This document shows positions 38,301 to 58,710 of a DNA stretch of 64,000 bases, in pieces. Positions within the stretch are counted from its first letter, which is position 1, and each line of letters begins with the position of its first letter. Source of the DNA: Methanosarcina horonobensis HB-1 = JCM 15518 (GTDB lineage Archaea; Halobacteriota; Methanosarcinia; Methanosarcinales; Methanosarcinaceae); assembly GCF_000970285.1 (NCBI RefSeq), contig NZ_CP009516.1, positions 3,637,036 to 3,701,035 on the forward strand. The letters are read 5' to 3'. A model generated the notes under the pieces. It worked only from the letters and a program-made list of their open reading frames with translations, was not told the origin of the DNA and ran no database searches. A program made the translations under genes and the position numbers.

Positions 38301-41195
38301 TTATTTAATCCTGCTTCTTTTCATCAGCAGGGAATTTGTCGTTACAGAAACCGAGCTAAGTGCCATGAAAGCGGCAGCCAGCTCCGGTGTAATCATAATC
38401 CGGAGGAAAAAAGGATACAGAATTCCAGCTGCAATAGGGATTCCTATTGTATTGTACCCGAAAGCCCAGACCAGATTTTGCTTGATCTTATTAATGGTAA
38501 GCCGGCTCAGTTTAAGAGCTGCTACCACATCTCTCGGATCGTTTTTTATAAGTACTATCTTTGCAGATTCCATTGCCACATCCGTGCCTGCCCCCATAGC
38601 GATTCCAACATCGGATTGAATCAGGGCAGGAGCATCGTTAATGCCGTCGCCAACCATGCCGACGAGTTTGCCTTCTTTCTGAAGCTTTTTGATTTCGTTT
38701 GCTTTATCTTCGGGCAGCACCTCTGCAAGCACCCTTGGAATCCCTACCTCTCCAGCAATAGCCCCGGCTGTGATAGCATTGTCTCCGGTTATCATAACTA
38801 CTTCGATATTCATTTTTTTAAGGGTATCAACAGCCTCTTTAGAGTTCTCCTTCAGAGTATCGGCAACTGCAACAAGCCCTACAGCTTCGTTCCCAAGAGC
38901 TACAAGCATTGCAGTTTTCCCCTGTTCTTCAAATTTGCGCATCTGGGTTTCAAGCCCCTCAAAAGAAATTGAGTTTTCTTCCATAAGTTTGCGGGTACCA
39001 AGCAGGATCTTCCGGTCTTCAAGATAGGCTTCGATGCCCTTTCCTGGAATCGAACGGAAGTTTTTTGCCTCTGCAAGGTCGATTTTTCTTTCATCCGCAC
39101 CTCTTACAATGGCTTCTCCCAGTGGATGCTCGGATCCTCTTTCAGCCGTTGCGGCAATAAAAAGCACTTCGTTTTCCTCGCGACCGGAAACTGCAAACAC
39201 GTCCGTGAGTTTGGGGGTACCTTCAGTCAGGGTCCCTGTTTTGTCAAACACGATCGTATCAAGTTTATGCGCCCTCTCAAGGGCTTCTCCACCTTTGATC
39301 AGAATTCCGTTTTCAGCGCCTTTTCCCGTTCCGACCATAATAGCTGCGGGTGTTGCAAGTCCTACTGCACAGGGACAGGATATCACAAGGACGGTGATAG
39401 CTATAAGCAGGGAAAAGAGGAAGGGACTGATTCCTCCGAGAGCTATGGATTCACCTACTCCGTAGCGCCAGTAACCGATGAAAAACCAGAAGAAAAAAGC
39501 CACCAGGGCAATTATATGCACGGCTACGATGAAGTTGCCGGCAAAAACATCTGCGATTCTCTGTATGGGAGCTTTTGTTGTCTGGGCTGATTCCACAAGC
39601 CTGATTATCTGGGCAAGGGCAGTATCAGCTCCTACTTTTGTAGCCCTGAACCTGAAGGACCCTGTCTTGTTAAGGGTAGCCCCGATAACAGTATCCCCTT
39701 GACTTTTCTCTACGGGGATGCTCTCACCGGTAATCATTGACTCGTCTACTGCAGAGCTTCCCTGAACCACAATTCCGTCAACAGGGATCTTTTCTCCGGG
39801 ACGGACCACGACAATATCCCCGACAACTACCTCTTCTACAGGAACTTCTTTTTCTTCGCCGTCTACGAGGATCCGTGAGGTTTTTGCTCTTAACCCCATC
39901 AGTTTTCGGATGGCTTCCGAAGTTCTGCCCCTGGCTCTTGCTTCAAGGTACCTGCCAAAGACAATGAAAAGTATCAGTAAAGCTACGGTATCATAATAAA
40001 GAACGTCGTATCCAGGCCCCAAGTCAAGGAAAGTTGCTGCTACACTGATAAGATAAGCTGACCCTGTCCCTGCAGCAATCAGCAGGTTCATGTCGGTTAC
40101 TCCATGCTTGAAACCTTTGAAAGTTCCGACGAAAAACTGTCTGCCCGGAAAAAGAAGGACAAGAGTAGAGAGTATAAAAAGTACAACAGGTTCTGTAAGG
40201 ATCTCAGGAACAAAAGCGAGAAACGGAAATGCCATGCTCATATTTCCAAGAGCTATCGGAATTCCCAGGACAAGGGCAATAATCAGGTTGTTTCTCTGCC
40301 TGCGGATTTCAGCATCCCTTGACATTTGTTCCCGGTCTTCGTATTCAACAGTCTCAGCCTGGACCGAAGCCCCATAGCCTATTCCCTGAATTGCAGCAAT
40401 AATTTCCCTCACAGAAATGCGAGCCGAGTCAAATTCCACAACGGCTTTCTCAAGAGGAAGATTTACGGAGGCCGAGATTACGCCTTCGGTTTTATAGAGG
40501 ATCTTCTCAATATTTGAAGCACAGGACGCACAGCTCATACCCTGGATATTCAGGGTTACTTTATCCTTCTCGACTTTATACCCTATGGATTCAATAGCCT
40601 CTTCAATTTCCTTCGGAGAAACCATGGAAGGATCAAAACTGACCTGTGCCCTGCCAAGTTCCAGGTTAACGGCTACGGAATCCACGCCCTCTTTTTTCTT
40701 CAGGATCTTCTCGATGTTCAGTGCACATGCCGAACAGGTCATCCCTGAAACTCCGAGAGTGATTTCTTTTGAACCCGGTTTCTGGCTTGATATGCGAACT
40801 GCTTCTTTTTCCGCAGCAATGCATGGTTCGGTAAGAGGGCATGCCTGAGAACTCTCTACCACCCCCTCTTTTACTTCTTCTGAAACCCTGTCTACAGGTT
40901 CTGAAAGTAAACCTGCTTTCTCTTTTTCCAGAGCAGGTTCGGAGTTTTCTGCCTGGACTTCTTCTTCATACCCTTCAGTCGTCGCTTCTTCGCGTTCTGT
41001 AGAATATCCTGCCTTTCGGACAGCTTCTTTGATATCCTCAAGGCTTAGTTTATCGGGATCAAAGTTAACAGTTGCACTTTCGGCTTCAAGATTGACATCT
41101 ACAGATTTGACTCCATCAAGAGAAGAAATAGCATCCGCTACTCTTTTCTGGCAGTGACCACAGGTCATGCCATAAACACCTATCGTGATTTCCAT
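38301..41195 (-). CDS. copA: Copper-type P1B ATPase with three N-terminal heavy-metal domains
   Basis: 964 residues. Three HMA domains: GMTCGHC (residues 9-15), GMTCSAC (151-157) and GMSCASC (219-225). An acidic linker of about 75 residues separates HMA1 from HMA2. The transmembrane metal site is CPC (607-609), the phosphorylation loop DKTGT (651-655), and the hinge [10 protein letters not shown] lies near residue 860. CPC with NxxxxYN-like and MxxxS-like C-terminal helices ([17 protein letters not shown]) indicates Cu(I) export. The separate HMA and CopZ genes upstream may deliver copper. Confidence 0.95.
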
Positions 41196-41236: not shown

Positions 41237-41464
41237 TTAAAAAGCGTTTATAGACTCCCTTATATTTTTGTAACCCGCCTCAAGCAGGGTCATCCTTATG
41301 ACATGTGCATCGGTTATCCGGCTGTCATATACCACATTTACTGTCCTCTCAGGGACGTTTACATTTACACGGGAAACCCCGTTAATAGAGGTAATAAGTT
41401 TGGTAACTGTGTCTTTGCAGTACCTGCAAATCATATCATCTACTACAAGTGTTGTCTCCCCGAT
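41237..41464 (-). CDS. HMA-domain protein with atypical ICRYC site; no standard start codon
   Basis: About 75 residues, one HMA fold: TTLVVDDMICRYCKDTVTKL, then VNVNVPERTVNVVYD. The usual GMTCxxC is changed to DMICRYC, but the Cys pair is kept. The N-terminal strand lies upstream of the only ATG (41434, inside the metal loop). After an in-frame TGA the possible starts are limited; AUC at 41462-41464 follows GGGGGTGA by 4 nt. It lies between copA and copZ on the same strand and is probably a copper chaperone. Confidence 0.7.
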   Translation of the reverse strand: MGETTLVVDDMICRYCKDTVTKLITSINGVSRVNVNVPERTVNVVYDSRITDAHVIRMTLLEAGYKNIRESINAF

Positions 41465-41608: not shown

Positions 41609-41815
41609 TCAGGCTGGCTCATACCCGGTTTCTCTTATTGCAGCTTTGATTTTCTCGGTGTCTGTCTTTCCTTCATCGAACTCAACAACAGCCTGTCTGT
41701 TCTCAAGGCTGACATCTACTTTCTTTACGCCCTGCACGCCTTCAATTGCCTTTTTAACCCTCATAACGCAGTGTCCGCAGGACATGCCTTCGACTTTTAC
41801 GGTTTCCTGAGTAAT
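41609..41815 (-). CDS. copZ: CopZ-type copper chaperone; apparent AUU start
   Basis: About 68 residues, a complete HMA fold: ETVKVEGMSCGHCVMRVKKA, then GVKKVDVSLENRQAVVEFDE. The metal motif is GMSCGHC. The initiator appears to be AUU at 41813-41815, 7 nt after GGAGGT; there is no ATG, GTG or TTG in frame before the metal site. The end coordinate was set so that the frame closes at the TGA. It is the first of three minus-strand copper genes leading to copA. Confidence 0.82.
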   Translation of the reverse strand: MTQETVKVEGMSCGHCVMRVKKAIEGVQGVKKVDVSLENRQAVVEFDEGKTDTEKIKAAIRETGYEPA

Positions 41816-42202: not shown

Positions 42203-43147
42203 TTAACATCCTTGTTCGGATTCTTCCATACTCTCTAAGTCCATTGTTTTGTTTTGTTCATATTCTTCCATACACCCTAAGTCCATTGTCTTGTTTTGCT
42301 CATATTCTTCCGAAGGCTGTAACTTCATTGCCTTATCCATCATTTCCATTGTCATATTTTCTCCGGTCATGCACTCATAGGCCTGAATCATATGACCCAT
42401 CATTTCCATCTTAGACTCAAGGGTTTCTGTGCTGGAATCTTTCATGTGAAGTTTGTGGAGTACCATAGCTTTTTTCAGCCAGACGCTTGCGCTGTCCATT
42501 CTGGCCTTGTCTGTCATCTCCATAGCTGCGCTCTCTCCCATAATACATTTACGGGCATACATCATATTGTCCATCATTTCCATCCGGGACTCATTGGTTG
42601 CTTTACTGGGATTCTCCATCTGAAGCTTGTGCAGTACCATAGCCTGCTTCAGCCAGAAATCAGCATTGTTCAACCTGATCTTGGCTCCATACATAGAGAC
42701 TGCCAATGCTTTGTATGCTGTTATGTTATCCATCTTTTCCATGGTTACATTTTCTCCCATGATGCATTCATGGGCACGCATCATATGATTCAGCAGCTCC
42801 ATCTTAGACTCATTGGTTGCTTTGCTGGGATCCTCCATGTGAAGCTTATGCAGTTCCATAGCTTTCTCAAGACAGAAATCAGTATAACCCAGCTTAGACT
42901 GATCTGCACTTGTGTCCTGATCCATCTCAGCCATGTAGCAGTTTCCGTCAGCCATGTATTCACCGGTCATACAGCGCATCATGGTCTCGTTACCCTGGTA
43001 ATCCCCTATGCTTGACTGCATCATAGAACGTGTTTGATTGTAATCACACTGACCCATGGTATCTCCTGCAGCGGAACCTACCATCGTAATTGCCACAATT
43101 CCCAATACCAGCAAAAATGCTGACTTTATCGTTCCAATCCTGATCAT
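42203..43147 (-). CDS. Secreted Met-rich repeat protein, probable metal binder
   Basis: 314 residues. Signal peptide IKSAFLLVLGIVAITMVGSAAG. The mature protein is about 15% Met (47 Met in the whole chain), with conserved Cys. Three helical repeats of about 65-75 residues share the pattern WLKxAMVLHKLxM, then SKATNES, MEMMxxMMxAxxCIMGE and MTMEMMDK. A C-terminal tail repeats EYEQNKTMDL twice. The Met and His content and the position beside Cu ATPases suggest copper binding outside the cell. Start at 43147 follows GGGGGAAATAAG. No family is recognised. Confidence 0.75.
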   Translation of the reverse strand: MIRIGTIKSAFLLVLGIVAITMVGSAAGDTMGQCDYNQTRSMMQSSIGDYQGNETMMRCMTGEYMADGNCYMAEMDQDTSADQSKLGYTDFCLEKAMELHKLHMEDPSKATNESKMELLNHMMRAHECIMGENVTMEKMDNITAYKALAVSMYGAKIRLNNADFWLKQAMVLHKLQMENPSKATNESRMEMMDNMMYARKCIMGESAAMEMTDKARMDSASVWLKKAMVLHKLHMKDSSTETLESKMEMMGHMIQAYECMTGENMTMEMMDKAMKLQPSEEYEQNKTMDLGCMEEYEQNKTMDLESMEESEQGC

Positions 43148-43501
43148 CTTATTTCCCCCGTTACGCACCGAATTTGATAGGTTTAAAGATTCGGTTCCTA
43201 TTTTATTTATCTCCGCAATATAAAAGTCTTATTATAATAAAAACCGTTTCTGGGGACTCTTTTACAGATTAAGAGGCTTTAAAAAGGAGATAATTAAAAA
43301 AAAACATTGAAGACAATGAAATCTTTCATTTTTCACAAAGAAGTGGCTTCGTAACCCAATGTAAGATAAATATCCGGAAAATAAGGCAACCAAAACGCAA
43401 GAAGGCTCTTAAAGATGCCAGCCCTGGGAAGCTGAAAATTAAAAGAAAAATGTCAGAAGTTGACAATAATCAGGGCTAAAGACAAAAAGCCGGGATGTAG
43501 C
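43148..43501. other. Intergenic region, nothing recognised
   Basis: About 350 nt between two minus-strand genes. AT-rich; contains the promoter region of the Met-rich protein. No gene or strong fold seen. Confidence 0.35.
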
Positions 43502-43822
43502 TCATTTGATCTTTCGGGTTTGATCATGCTGGATTCCGTCCTTATGTCCTCCAGCACCATGTTCAATCCTTTTATCCTCTTCTTTATGCCCGTGCTTTCC
43601 GTCGCCATGCCCGCAATGTCTTCCATGTTCTCTATGATTTCCATACTTTCCACACATGAAAAAATGAAGCAGGATGTAAGCAAGGAAGAATATATAACTG
43701 GAGTACGCCAGAAGGTGAGCTCTGTGCTCTGTCAATATATAGAATGCAATGGTAGATAGAATAAAGAGCAAGGCTGCCCTTATAATAAATTTATTTCTTA
43801 AACTGAAAATTGTTCCATTCAT
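43502..43822 (-). CDS. DUF2933-like membrane protein with His-rich tail, copy 1
   Basis: About 106 residues. Two membrane helices (IIRAALLFILSTIAFYILTE and SSYIFFLAYILLHFFMCG), with HRAHLLAY between them, then a tail of His/Gly/Lys motifs (HGRHCGHGDGKHGHKE). The layout matches DUF2933 proteins, which often sit beside copper genes. The His-rich tail is a likely metal ligand set. Two paralogues lie at 52074 and 58372. The isoprenylcysteine-methyltransferase-like partner gene seen beside those copies is missing here. Confidence 0.78.
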   Translation of the reverse strand: MNGTIFSLRNKFIIRAALLFILSTIAFYILTEHRAHLLAYSSYIFFLAYILLHFFMCGKYGNHREHGRHCGHGDGKHGHKEEDKRIEHGAGGHKDGIQHDQTRKIK

Positions 43823-43864
43823 CAGGGAGTCTCCCAAGCCATAGGGCTTGAGTGCTATTCCTTC

Positions 43865-47120: not shown

Positions 47121-47263
47121 TTACTTTAAACGCGGAATAAACCCCGGAACTTCTGCCATATAACGAGAGTACTCTTCTCCAAATTCCGTCAGCACCTCTT
47201 TCTCTTCACTTCCTGTCAGCCTTTTGTACATATATACAAGGATTGGAAACACAATCAGAGTCG
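47121..47263 (-). pseudogene. C-terminal remnant of an ICMT-like gene
   Basis: The minus strand reads TLIVFPILVYMYKRLTGSEE then LTEFGEEYSRYMAEVPGFIP and a stop. This matches the last 47 residues of the intact gene at 57746 (VMFPILVLVYKKLAK, FGEEYSRYMAKVPGFIPSLG). The rest of the gene is absent. Confidence 0.8.
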
Positions 47264-47357
47264 ACATTGGGTATTTTTGCATATCCCGCCAAAAAGGCGA
47301 TTAGCGTTTTTTAGATTAATATGACTATTTATATACATGAAGGGATAATTTTTGTAT

Positions 47358-51429: not shown

Positions 51430-52052
51430 TTAAATGTGGTATAAACCCCGGAACTTCTGCCATATAGCGGGAATATGCTTCACCAAACTCCTCCAATGCC
51501 TCTTTTTCCTCACTTTTGCCAGCCTTTTGTACATATATACGAAGATTGGAAACATAATCAGAGTCAATATTGTGGGCCATTGTATCAGAAATCCTATCAT
51601 CACAAGTATGAAGCCGTCATATTGAGGATGACAGACATAGGCATAAGGCCCGGTAGTTGCCAATTCATGATTCTTCCGTGCCTTGTATAGCACATCCCAG
51701 GCTGAGGAGAGGAGATATAGCCCTCCTAGAATGAAAATATAGCTGATGAAATGAATCAGATTTAGATGAGGATCTCCTTCCATGCCCAGAAGGTCACTCC
51801 ATAGATGTCCGGCATTGTGAGAGTATATATCCAGCTCTGGATATGACTTGCCAGCCACCCTGATAGCAGGTAGATGGTCAGAGGAAAACCGTACATTTCG
51901 GTAAATAACGCAACTGTGAAGGCTGCAAATCCTCCAAGGGAGCGCCAGTCACGCGATGTTTTAGGATGTGTGAAGCTAAAGGCAAACATAATGAATATAA
52001 GGGAATTGATGATAACCAAGGACCAGAGACCATATGCAGGTGCATAGCTCAT
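51430..52052 (-). pseudogene. Frameshifted ICMT-like membrane methyltransferase
   Basis: Two overlapping frames together rebuild the gene at 57746: APAYGLWSLVIINSLIFIMF to YGFPLTIYLLSGWLA in one, then PELDIYSHNAGHLWSDLLGM to PTILTLIMFPIFVYMYKRLA in the next. A one-nucleotide shift lies near 51840-51855. After KRLAK a second shift changes the conserved FGEEYSRYMAKVPGF end to KHIPAIWQKFRG. The gene overlaps the promoter-distal end of its DUF2933 partner. Confidence 0.85.
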
Positions 52053-52452: not shown

Positions 52453-54516
52453 TTAATCGAGCTCTGTTCTATTTAGAAGCAAGGCATTGATCGTCACTAG
52501 CAAAGTACTTCCAGCCATGGTAAGGGCTGCAATCTCAGGCCTCAACAGCAGCCCAATTGAAGGATATAAAGCTCCACCGGCGATCGGAAAAGCTATGAGG
52601 TTGTAACCTGCCGCATACCAGAGGTTCTCAATCATCTTCCGCCTGGTAGCTTTGCTTATGGCTATCACCTTTATCACATCCAGGGGATCGCTATGCATAA
52701 GCACAACATCTGCAGACTCCAGGGCCACATCCGTTCCCGCACCAATGGCTATACCCACATCAGCCTGTACCAGCGCTGGGGCATCATTAATGCCGTCTCC
52801 TACCATAGCCACCAGCTTGCCCTCCTGCTGGATCTCTTTCACCTTGTCAACCTTTTGGTCTGGCCGAACCTCGGCAAATACCTTCTCTATCCCTAAATCT
52901 GTGGTAATGCGTCTCGCTGTAGCCCAGTTATCCCCGGTGAGCATGATACTTTCGATACCGAGAGCCTTGAGCTGCTGTACGGTTTCCCGTGAGGTGGGTC
53001 TAGGGGCATCGGCCACGGCGATAAGTCCTACCAATCTGCCATCCTTGCTGATGTAAATCACTGTTTTACCCTGTTTTCCTAACTCCTCGGCCTTGGTCTT
53101 TATTCCCCCCATAGCTATTTTCTGATCCTCCATCAGGCTGAGATTACCCATGAGAATTGTACTACCCTCAACTTGGGCCTTTATACCCTGGCCGGTTACC
53201 GCTTCAAAACTGCTTGCTGTGAGTGGGGCTGTTCCCTTAGCTTTCTGAAGTATCGCCTTGGCAATGGGATGTTCCGAACCTTGTTCCACAGAAGCTGCAA
53301 TCATAATCAGTTCGGATTCGGTCACTTCAGGAGCAGTTACCACATCCGTCGCCTCAGGCTCACCTTTAGTGAGCGTTCCTGTCTTATCAAAGATTACGGC
53401 CTGCAGCCGGGCAGAGTCCTCTAAAGCTACAGCACTTTTGAAAAGGATACCTCGCTGGGCAGTCATTGTAGTAGCTACCTGAATAGCCATAGGAGTGGCA
53501 AGACCAAGGGCATCGGGACAGGCTATTACTACTACTGTAACAGCGAGAGTGAAGGCAAAGACCAGAGACGCATTGGCGAAGAAGTACCAGATTATGAAGG
53601 TAAGGGGCCCAAAGATTATAGCTGCCACAGTGAGCCATATAGCTGCTCTGTCGGCCAATACCTGCGCTGGAGGCTTCGATGCCTGGGCAGCAGCTACTAA
53701 TTGAACGATCTGAGCCAAAGCGGTGTCAGCTCCCACTTTCGTGGCCTTGAACTTGAAGGAGCCTGTCTGGTTGATAGTTGCGCCTATAACCTCGCTTCCT
53801 GAAATCTTATGAACAGGTACGCTTTCTCCCGTAACCATGGCTTCGTTCACTGAAGACTCTCCTTCGATGACTATACCGTCTACGGGTATCTTGTCGCCTG
53901 GCCTGACCACGACAGTATCGCCAACTTTGACTTCAGCAGTTGAAATTTCCATCTCTTTCCCATCCCTGATAACCTTGGCCATGGAAGGTGAAAGTTCCAA
54001 TAGGGCACGGATAGCTGAGGATGCGCTGCCTCTGGCTCTGAGGTCGAGCCAGTGACCTCCCAGGATAAAGACCATTAGCACAGTCGCAGCCTCGTAGAAG
54101 GTCTCGGCCTTAAAGAAGAATGTAGCACCAACACTGAACACATAAGCAGAGAGCACAGAGATCGTGACCAGGACCGCCAGGTTTGGAATGCGATTCTTTA
54201 TAGCATGCATCGCGTCCACGTAAAACATCCATCCACCATAGAAGACGACGGGCGTGGCCAACAGAAGCATGAAGACGTTAGGATTCAGCCAAAAGGGAAC
54301 GGGCAACTCTATTCCGGTCAATTCTCGCACTAACATCGAGTAAGGTAGAATGAGCAGGGTCAAGGGTATTGAAACCAACAACCTGCGATACATATCCTCG
54401 GCCATGGATTCGATATCGCCATGTATTCCCTTGTCTCTTCCTGGTATGGGTTGAGACGTACCATTTCCCGGAGCGCCGTGTTCCTCGTGAGCGCTCTTTC
54501 CATGATCAGGTTTCAT
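52453..54516 (-). CDS. P1B-type metal ATPase with CPD transmembrane motif (CopB-like)
   Basis: About 687 residues. There is no HMA domain in the same frame; the N-terminus is short and His/Gly-rich ([13 protein letters not shown]). Transmembrane site [10 protein letters not shown] (CPD at about 333-335), phosphorylation motif DKTGT near residue 375, SEHP near residue 415 and [10 protein letters not shown] near residue 580. CPC (CopA/ZntA) and CPH (CopB) are the usual forms; CPD is unusual and could change the metal. ATG 54516 follows GAGGAG and overlaps the upstream HMA-like gene by 11 nt. Confidence 0.9.
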
Positions 54517-54751
54517 GCTCTCCTCTAATATCATGAGGCCTGAAGACACGGCAGTGATAACCGCATTCAGCCACTATATGCTGAATTCCTCCTACGGTGA
54601 TGAGGCTTTCATCGTACTCTACAATAGCCACTCCGCTTACAGGGCTGACCTCGACATGTTTGATGCCCGGATGCATACGGAGATGTTTTTCAACTGCCAG
54701 TGCATCCCCTGGATGAAGGAGCCAATCAACCTTGACCACAGCTTTTTTCAA
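54506..54751 (-). CDS. HMA-like domain protein without the Cys pair
   Basis: 81 residues. The fold pattern ([20 protein letters not shown], then [19 protein letters not shown] and [13 protein letters not shown]) matches an HMA ferredoxin-like domain, but the metal loop WLLHPGD has no CxxC; His and one C-terminal Cys pair (ECGYHC) remain. Start is TTG 54751 after GGGGG. It overlaps the ATPase start, so the two are translationally coupled and may act as a split N-terminal domain. Confidence 0.72.
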
Positions 54752-57745: not shown

Positions 57746-58375
57746 TCATCCAAGGCTTGGTATAAATCCCGGAACTTTTGCCATATAGCGAGAATATTCT
57801 TCGCCAAATTCCGCTAATGTATCCCGCTCCTCCCGTTTTGCCAGCTTTTTATACACCAACACCAGGATAGGGAACATCACTAGAGTCAATATTGTGGGCC
57901 ATTGTACAAGAAATCCCAGCATAACAAGCACGAAAGCAACATATTGAGGGTGGCGCACATAGGCATACGGCCCGGTGATTGCAAGTTCGTGGTTCTTTTG
58001 TGCCTTATACAGCACACTCCAGGATGAAGATAGAAGATATAGTCCTCCAAGGATTAGAACGTAGCTGAATAAATGAATCGGACTGAGGTGAGGGTCCCCT
58101 GTCATGCCCAGAAGGTCGCTCCAGAGATGTCCAGAATTGTGAGAGTAAATATCCAGCCCCGGGTAGCGGTCTGTCAGCCATCCTGATAGCAGGTAAATGG
58201 TGAGAGGGAAACCGTACATTTCTGTGAAAAGTGCAACTATAAACGCTGCAAATCCTCCAAGAGAACGCCAGTCGCGCGATGTTTTAGGTTGCATGAAACT
58301 TAAGGCGAAGATAATAAAGATTAAAGAGTTAACTATGACCAGAGGCCAGAGACCATATGCTTGAATAGTACTCAT
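57746..58375 (-). CDS. ICMT-like membrane methyltransferase, intact copy
   Basis: 209 residues with about five membrane helices. The C-terminal SAM-binding region reads AITGPYAYVRHPQYVAFVLV near residue 133, then LAEFGEEYSRYMAKVPGF. The central segment DIYSHNSGHLWSDLLGM is shared with the broken copy at 51430. It starts inside the stop of its DUF2933 partner (ATGA overlap), so both are made from one mRNA. The substrate is unknown; membrane lipids or prenylated carriers are possible. Confidence 0.85.
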   Translation of the reverse strand: MSTIQAYGLWPLVIVNSLIFIIFALSFMQPKTSRDWRSLGGFAAFIVALFTEMYGFPLTIYLLSGWLTDRYPGLDIYSHNSGHLWSDLLGMTGDPHLSPIHLFSYVLILGGLYLLSSSWSVLYKAQKNHELAITGPYAYVRHPQYVAFVLVMLGFLVQWPTILTLVMFPILVLVYKKLAKREERDTLAEFGEEYSRYMAKVPGFIPSLG

Positions 58376-58710
58376 TTTAGACTCTCCTTGTCGTGTTCAT
58401 GCTCCCCGTGTCCGTGCTGACCTGTATATTCATGCACTTCGGCATCCCGTTCAACTCCTTTTTCTGTGTCACTAAGTTTGTGTTTTCCACTTCCATGCCC
58501 AGAATGTCCTCCATGTTCTCCATGTCCCCCATGCCTTCCACACATGAAAAAGTGAAGAAGGATGTAAGCAAGGAAGAATATGTAGCTGGAATATGCCAGC
58601 AGGTGAACTTTATGCTCTATCAGCAGATAGAATGCAATAGTAGCTAAACCGAAAAGCACTATTGCCTTTACGATGAAATTATTTCTTGAATTGCAGCTTG
58701 CTCCATTCAT
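58372..58710 (-). CDS. DUF2933-like membrane protein with His-rich tail, copy 3
   Basis: 112 residues. Helices IVKAIVLFGLATIAFYLLIE and SSYIFFLAYILLHFFMCGRH, between them HKVHLLAY, then a tail with HGGHGEHGGHSGHGSGKH and HGHGEHEHD. Start follows GGAGAAACTCC. It is coupled to the ICMT-like gene downstream. The best-preserved of the three DUF2933 copies. Confidence 0.82.
   Translation of the reverse strand: MNGASCNSRNNFIVKAIVLFGLATIAFYLLIEHKVHLLAYSSYIFFLAYILLHFFMCGRHGGHGEHGGHSGHGSGKHKLSDTEKGVERDAEVHEYTGQHGHGEHEHDKESLK

Follow-up and report, generated by a model that had tools for sequence, protein, structure and literature searches.

What does a protein that is 15% methionine do beside the copper pump of a methanogen? 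The question is raised by a locus of Methanosarcina horonobensis HB-1, in a stretch of 64,000 nucleotides that we refer to as the window. An earlier note had described there a 314-residue open reading frame with about 15% Met, without giving its strand, and had proposed an undescribed copper buffer of archaea. The reading frame lies on the minus strand, and the genes around it follow on that one strand in the order DUF2933, Met-rich protein, HMA, HMA, and CopA, so that the Met-rich gene is 5' of both HMA genes and CopA. The features of the locus are as follows.

38301..41195 (-): Cu(I)-type P1B ATPase (CopA) with three HMA domains and CPC and MALSS motifs
41237..41434 (-): second small HMA protein
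41609..41785 (-): small metallochaperone of the HMA type (PF00403), which probably starts a little farther upstream
42203..43147 (-): Met-rich triple-repeat, putatively secreted protein, 314 aa (ORF and translation)
42206..42307 (-): its C-terminal tail, residues 281-314, containing EYEQNKTMDL twice and ending in Cys
42338..42508 (-): repeat 3, residues 214-270, predicted helical hairpin
42512..42682 (-): repeat 2, residues 156-212, predicted helical hairpin
42731..42901 (-): repeat 1, residues 83-139, predicted helical hairpin
42902..43063 (-): N-terminal region, residues 29-82, low confidence in the model, with NQT and an NETMMRCM sequon/Met/Cys motif
43064..43147 (-): residues 1-28, a predicted signal peptide (sequence judged by eye) with a hydrophobic helix at 7-22 in the model, then GSAA/GD
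43216..43237 (-): conserved block TTATAATAAGACTTTTATATTG, which precedes the ATG of the Met-rich gene by about 90 bp
43502..43837 (-): DUF2933 His-rich membrane protein, a usual copper-cluster neighbor

The copper ATPase that the earlier note placed next to the gene is borne out by its three HMA domains, its CPC motif, and a YN/MxxSS signature, a combination typical of Cu(I) P1B-1 pumps. DUF2933 and ICMT genes are documented members of copA clusters (PMC8478169). Elsewhere in the window, a second P1B-type ATPase at 52453-54549 (-) has CPD (IACPDALGL) in place of CPC, lacks an N-terminal HMA domain, and lies beside DUF2933. The window also contains a split, apparently frameshifted ICMT-like gene at 51430-52052 (-), a further C-terminal remnant at 47121-47282 (-), and an intact DUF2933-ICMT pair at 57746-58710 (-), which we read from the sequence as probable repeated duplication and decay.

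The Met-rich protein contains 47 Met, 9 Cys, and 8 His in 314 residues. Its Met content of 15.0% compares with 2.7% in the other window ORFs of at least 150 aa (binomial P = 3e-21), none of which exceeds 4.5%. An in-frame GTG at 43168 is a possible alternative start, and the N-terminus, a hydrophobic stretch followed by GSAA/GD, fits a Sec signal. The three repeat copies claimed for the protein are confirmed: each is 57 aa long, the pairs are identical at 30-32 of 57 positions (53-56%), and their local scores of 155-170 far exceed the maximum of 51 in 500 shuffles. The tail motif EYEQNKTMDL does occur twice, at residues 281 and 295. N-x-S/T sequons are enriched, with nine present versus 1.9 expected and none of 2000 shuffles reaching this number. 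The earlier note had also pointed to Met-rich motifs that bind Cu(I) in bacterial periplasmic proteins; MM, MxM, and MxxM spacings in the window protein are no more frequent than its composition predicts, and we have dropped Met spacing as support for metal binding.

We modeled the window protein with AlphaFold2 from eight relatives. In the model, a hydrophobic helix at the N-terminus is followed by three hairpins of two helices each (residues 77-130, 152-203, and 213-261), whose pLDDT is mostly 71-93; outside the hairpins confidence is low (mean pLDDT 56.6, pTM 0.43). Modeling of a bacterial relative, described below, predicted the same hairpin with a pLDDT of 91-96. A Foldseek search of the PDB with both models gave no hit with an E value of 0.001 or less and returned just generic helical bundles, and a sequence-profile search of the PDB gave one short match to designed leucine-rich repeats that we judged to be chance. 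No family in the databases searched claims the window protein, as had been stated: Pfam and NCBIfam gave no match at curated cutoffs, and PHROG and the PDB contain no family for it. The domain HMM that we built matches its three copies with E values of about 1e-25.

A single-sequence search found relatives in 11 of 31 Methanosarcina genomes and in none of the 24 other genera sampled. The profile extended this to 16 of the 31, some of which match mainly at the signal peptide. The distribution is patchy, about half of the genus lacking the gene; HMA1 relatives occur in 30 of the 31 genomes. Repeat number varies from 0 to 4 among the family members of the genus. The complete helical members are 229-559 aa long with 13-16% Met and one to four hairpins, all end in a terminal Cys, and the region corresponding to window residues 29-82 is larger in relatives. 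In Methanosarcina most homologs occupy one and the same slot in the copper cluster, with the UbiB kinase on one side and HMA-HMA-CopA on the other. The distance from the Met-rich gene to HMA1 is 0.8-2.6 kb in five helical members (G000, G008, G011, G016, and G020) and 9.2 kb in G002. The gene and CopA are on different contigs in G022 and G023; in G001 the gene lies elsewhere, away from CopA, yet 4 kb from an HMA gene; and within the regions read, the slot contains no such gene in G027, G003, and G014. Given their common ancestry, the Methanosarcina loci count as few independent events.

Judged by sequence, the family also takes in members that lack helical repeats and are rich in Met, Cys, and His. 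The slot of G015 and G021 contains, 1.7-2.4 kb from HMA1, a relative with about 18-19% Met, 34-37 Cys, the family signal peptide, and no hairpin, and G008 is a hybrid that combines NETMxHCCMMGDHSA repeats with one hairpin. The nine helical members share the 22-bp block near -90, and its position weight matrix scores 21.3 in G021 and 16.6 in G015, versus 13.0 for the best unrelated upstream region among 377 scanned, which supports shared ancestry for the gene starts of both designs. The block was not seen upstream of HMA2, CopA, or DUF2933, and we rejected it as a regulator site shared with HMA2 and CopA. Also rejected were a G006 relative with 23% Met, which has only the signal peptide in common, no promoter block upstream (score 5.0), and a position away from CopA, and weak matches in other archaea (G131 and G103) that are too short. 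Two other Met-containing proteins came to our attention. A membrane-anchored protein with GPGMMNNPxYNYxYGP repeats is encoded near the family in several Methanosarcina loci, at L023 3025-3738 (-), L024 8352-9047 (+), L026 8233-8928 (+), and L028 3013-3708 (-); the two copies tested have no convincing Pfam match. L042 1489-2172 (+) encodes a secreted protein with 23% Met, MMGNQTMMMPFMMMP repeats, and a signal peptide resembling that of the family, beside cysteine-biosynthesis genes, and a cation-diffusion-type transporter lies about 2.5 kb away.

The family is not restricted to the genus. The profile first matched one Nitrospirota metagenome-assembled genome at 53% identity and then 21 of 396 Nitrospirota genomes, with one hairpin copy each and E values of 1e-20 to 1e-29, except for the weak, stop-interrupted match G621, which is counted in the tally of 22. 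The 21 bacterial genes studied comprise G451 and 20 fetched loci, all from Nitrospirota, the one bacterial phylum sampled. Their products have a predicted signal peptide of the AYA/Q type, a Met-rich segment, and one hairpin, with 7-24% Met; nearly all end in His, most of them in HKH or HGH. A CPC-type CopA is encoded on the same strand within 5.3 kb of 15 of the 21 genes, at 28-124 bp in eight cases, and by our estimate the chance of a random gene lying equally near a given CopA is about 0.5%. These CopA-like neighbors contain CPC in all 15 cases and MxxSS in 14, the remaining one being cut by a contig end, and the one tested with Pfam has YHS and HMBD domains. HMA, ICMT, DUF2933, YHS, and RND genes recur nearby. 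Because Nitrospirota carry the same domain, the Met-rich hairpin protein is not an archaeal specialty; this part of the original proposal falls, and its copper link and the undescribed status of the family gain much support from the locus conserved across Methanosarcina and from the domain beside CPC-type CopA in Nitrospirota. A phage prohead protease of the HK97 type with 4% Met (PF04586; L107 4500-5330 (+)) ends in a related hairpin, whose presence in a protein that is not Met-rich implies that the fold alone does not indicate copper. Searches of plasmids, phage records, and further viral sequences gave nothing besides this protease and a short match in L133.

An alignment of 16 archaeal and 16 bacterial hairpin domains reveals six positions common to both. 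H20 is present in all archaeal and 15 bacterial domains (31/32), M40 and M43 in 15 of 16 on each side (30/32), and H23 in 12 archaeal and 15 bacterial domains. C8 and C49 occur in all 16 bacterial domains and in 10 and 8 archaeal ones, respectively; in the window repeats the pair is incomplete (Y/C, N/C, and S/C), only C49 being kept. The antiparallel geometry of the hairpin would place C8 and C49 face to face at its open end, where they should oppose each other as a disulfide or a metal pair. Met at helix columns 22, 24, 37, 39, 40, and 43 exchanges mainly with Leu and Ile. Most archaeal copies have the sequon TNES at the hairpin turn, where bacteria have TEAS, and archaeal members have 9-17 sequons versus none in the three bacterial members counted.

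Since the hairpin unit has no family name and lies in bacterial copper-pump operons, it most likely marks an undescribed copper-soaking protein of archaea and bacteria. We assign a probability of about 0.68 to the reading that the Met-rich protein is an extracytoplasmic Cu(I) sponge or buffer partnered with CopA, for which we infer Cu(I) binding, export, the ligands, and the buffering role. The predicted signal peptide would export the protein, which in Methanosarcina would buffer Cu(I) on the surface or in the space that separates membrane and S-layer. Each 57-residue two-helix hairpin would offer soft ligands, namely, the near-invariant HxxH that closes helix 1, M40 and M43 of helix 2, and C8 and C49 near the open end, and sequon-rich Met/Cys linkers and Met tails may add others. 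Cu(I) exported by the adjacent CopA could then be held through many weak, exchangeable thioether, thiol, and imidazole contacts, so that it would neither re-enter the cell nor poison envelope proteins, and gain or loss of repeats may tune the copper capacity. Precedents are Met-rich segments, described as a "Cu sponge" for the Cu(I) that they bind (PMC11840665), and the metal sponge SilE (PMC5008109). We are more tentative about a broader proposal, put at somewhat under even odds, that a Cu(I)-binding hairpin of about 57 residues, single in Nitrospirota CopA operons and in tandem with sequons in Methanosarcina, is a modular extracellular copper sponge that was exchanged between bacteria and archaea.

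Several observations speak against a Cu(I) sponge: the Leu/Ile exchange, the chance spacing of Met, the phage hairpin, Y, N, and S in place of C8 in the window, the absence of the block at HMA2 and CopA, the location in G001, and the half of the genus without the gene. Many helix Met positions exchange with Leu and Ile as residues of a hydrophobic core do, which argues most strongly for a hydrophobic role and makes the main rival a helical chaperone or scaffold of envelope stress, whose Met-rich amphipathic hairpins would present a flexible hydrophobic surface to unfolded or membrane proteins and bind them under copper stress, with Met not serving as a ligand. The lack of enriched metal-type spacings, the hairpin of the phage protease, and the PspA-like, UbiB-like kinase, and methyltransferase genes close by in some loci point the same way. 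However, this rival leaves the conserved HxxH and paired Cys positions and the HKH tails to be explained, non-helical Met/Cys/His-rich relatives occupy the same slot, and regions of the MMQMMMDMM type exceed any hydrophobic need by far; we consider it unlikely.

The same sponge mechanism might instead serve another soft metal, such as Ag or Hg, or several metals. CPC-type pumps can also carry Ag+, which favors this idea, as does the preference of SilE, a Met/His sponge, for Ag+ (PMC5008109), but the neighbors are the standard copper set of HMA, CopA, DUF2933, and ICMT, and we give it a small chance. Smaller still is the chance that a surface structural or adhesion glycoprotein came to lie in a copper cluster by accident: the sequon difference between archaeal and bacterial members and the patchy distribution would suit it, whereas the independent adjacency to CopA in 15 of 21 Nitrospirota cases would not. 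The least probable alternative in our view is a Met oxidant sink that guards the envelope through cyclic Met oxidation. Surface Met is indeed very high and copper is linked to oxidative damage (PMC9302797), but the conservation of HxxH, Cys, and HKH would go unexplained, and no Msr gene was recognized among the neighbors.

Under the Cu(I)-sponge reading, the family bears on the fate of Cu(I) after export by CopA in cells without a periplasm, and the literature searched says almost nothing on how methanogens handle copper outside the cytoplasm. This one unnamed family has a defined domain and candidate ligands, its locus is conserved in archaea as well as bacteria, and it can be tested in a genetically tractable genus; the hairpin domain model can annotate many hypothetical proteins in copper operons.

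Membership in the SilE/PcoE, DUF305, Csp, or Spy families is unsupported, defining motifs or Pfam matches being absent; for Spy/CpxP (LTXXQ), the family members tested have no PF07813 match. The copper storage proteins Csp1 and Csp3 (DUF326) are likewise helical bundles with soft ligands, but no PF03860 match was found, the ligands here would be Met and His rather than mainly Cys, the unit has two helices, and the Cys of the window protein are not in CxxxC as in a Cys-lined four-helix bundle. CopM of Synechocystis (DUF305), a secreted and partly extracellular Cu(I) protein, resembles the family in its high Met content and in the duplication of its domain (PMC4335983); unlike CopM, the family has no PF03713 match, and its archaeal members lack the HH motif. 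Dense Met segments, for which a statistical mode of Cu(I) binding has been proposed (PMC11840665), are shared with the Met-rich domains of CueO and CopI, although the window family has its own hairpin domain and is not joined to an oxidase or cupredoxin. The DUF2933-ICMT-copA clusters of marine gammaproteobacteria have the same genes around CopA, but they are described with a cupredoxin/plastocyanin and not with a Met-rich hairpin protein (PMC8478169). A further parallel in design is provided by the periplasmic Ag/Cu sponges SilE and PcoE, which are also secreted, Met/His-rich, and built of repeated helical motifs, with genes beside a metal P-type ATPase and RND genes; a predicted secreted Met/His-rich protein in a metal efflux cluster is what we find here too. 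The SilE motifs MxxHx5-6HxxM and HxxMxxxHxxM are absent from 8 archaeal and 19 bacterial members, and, in contrast to SilE and PcoE, the unit of this family is a predicted pre-formed hairpin with conserved Cys that occurs in tandem copies.
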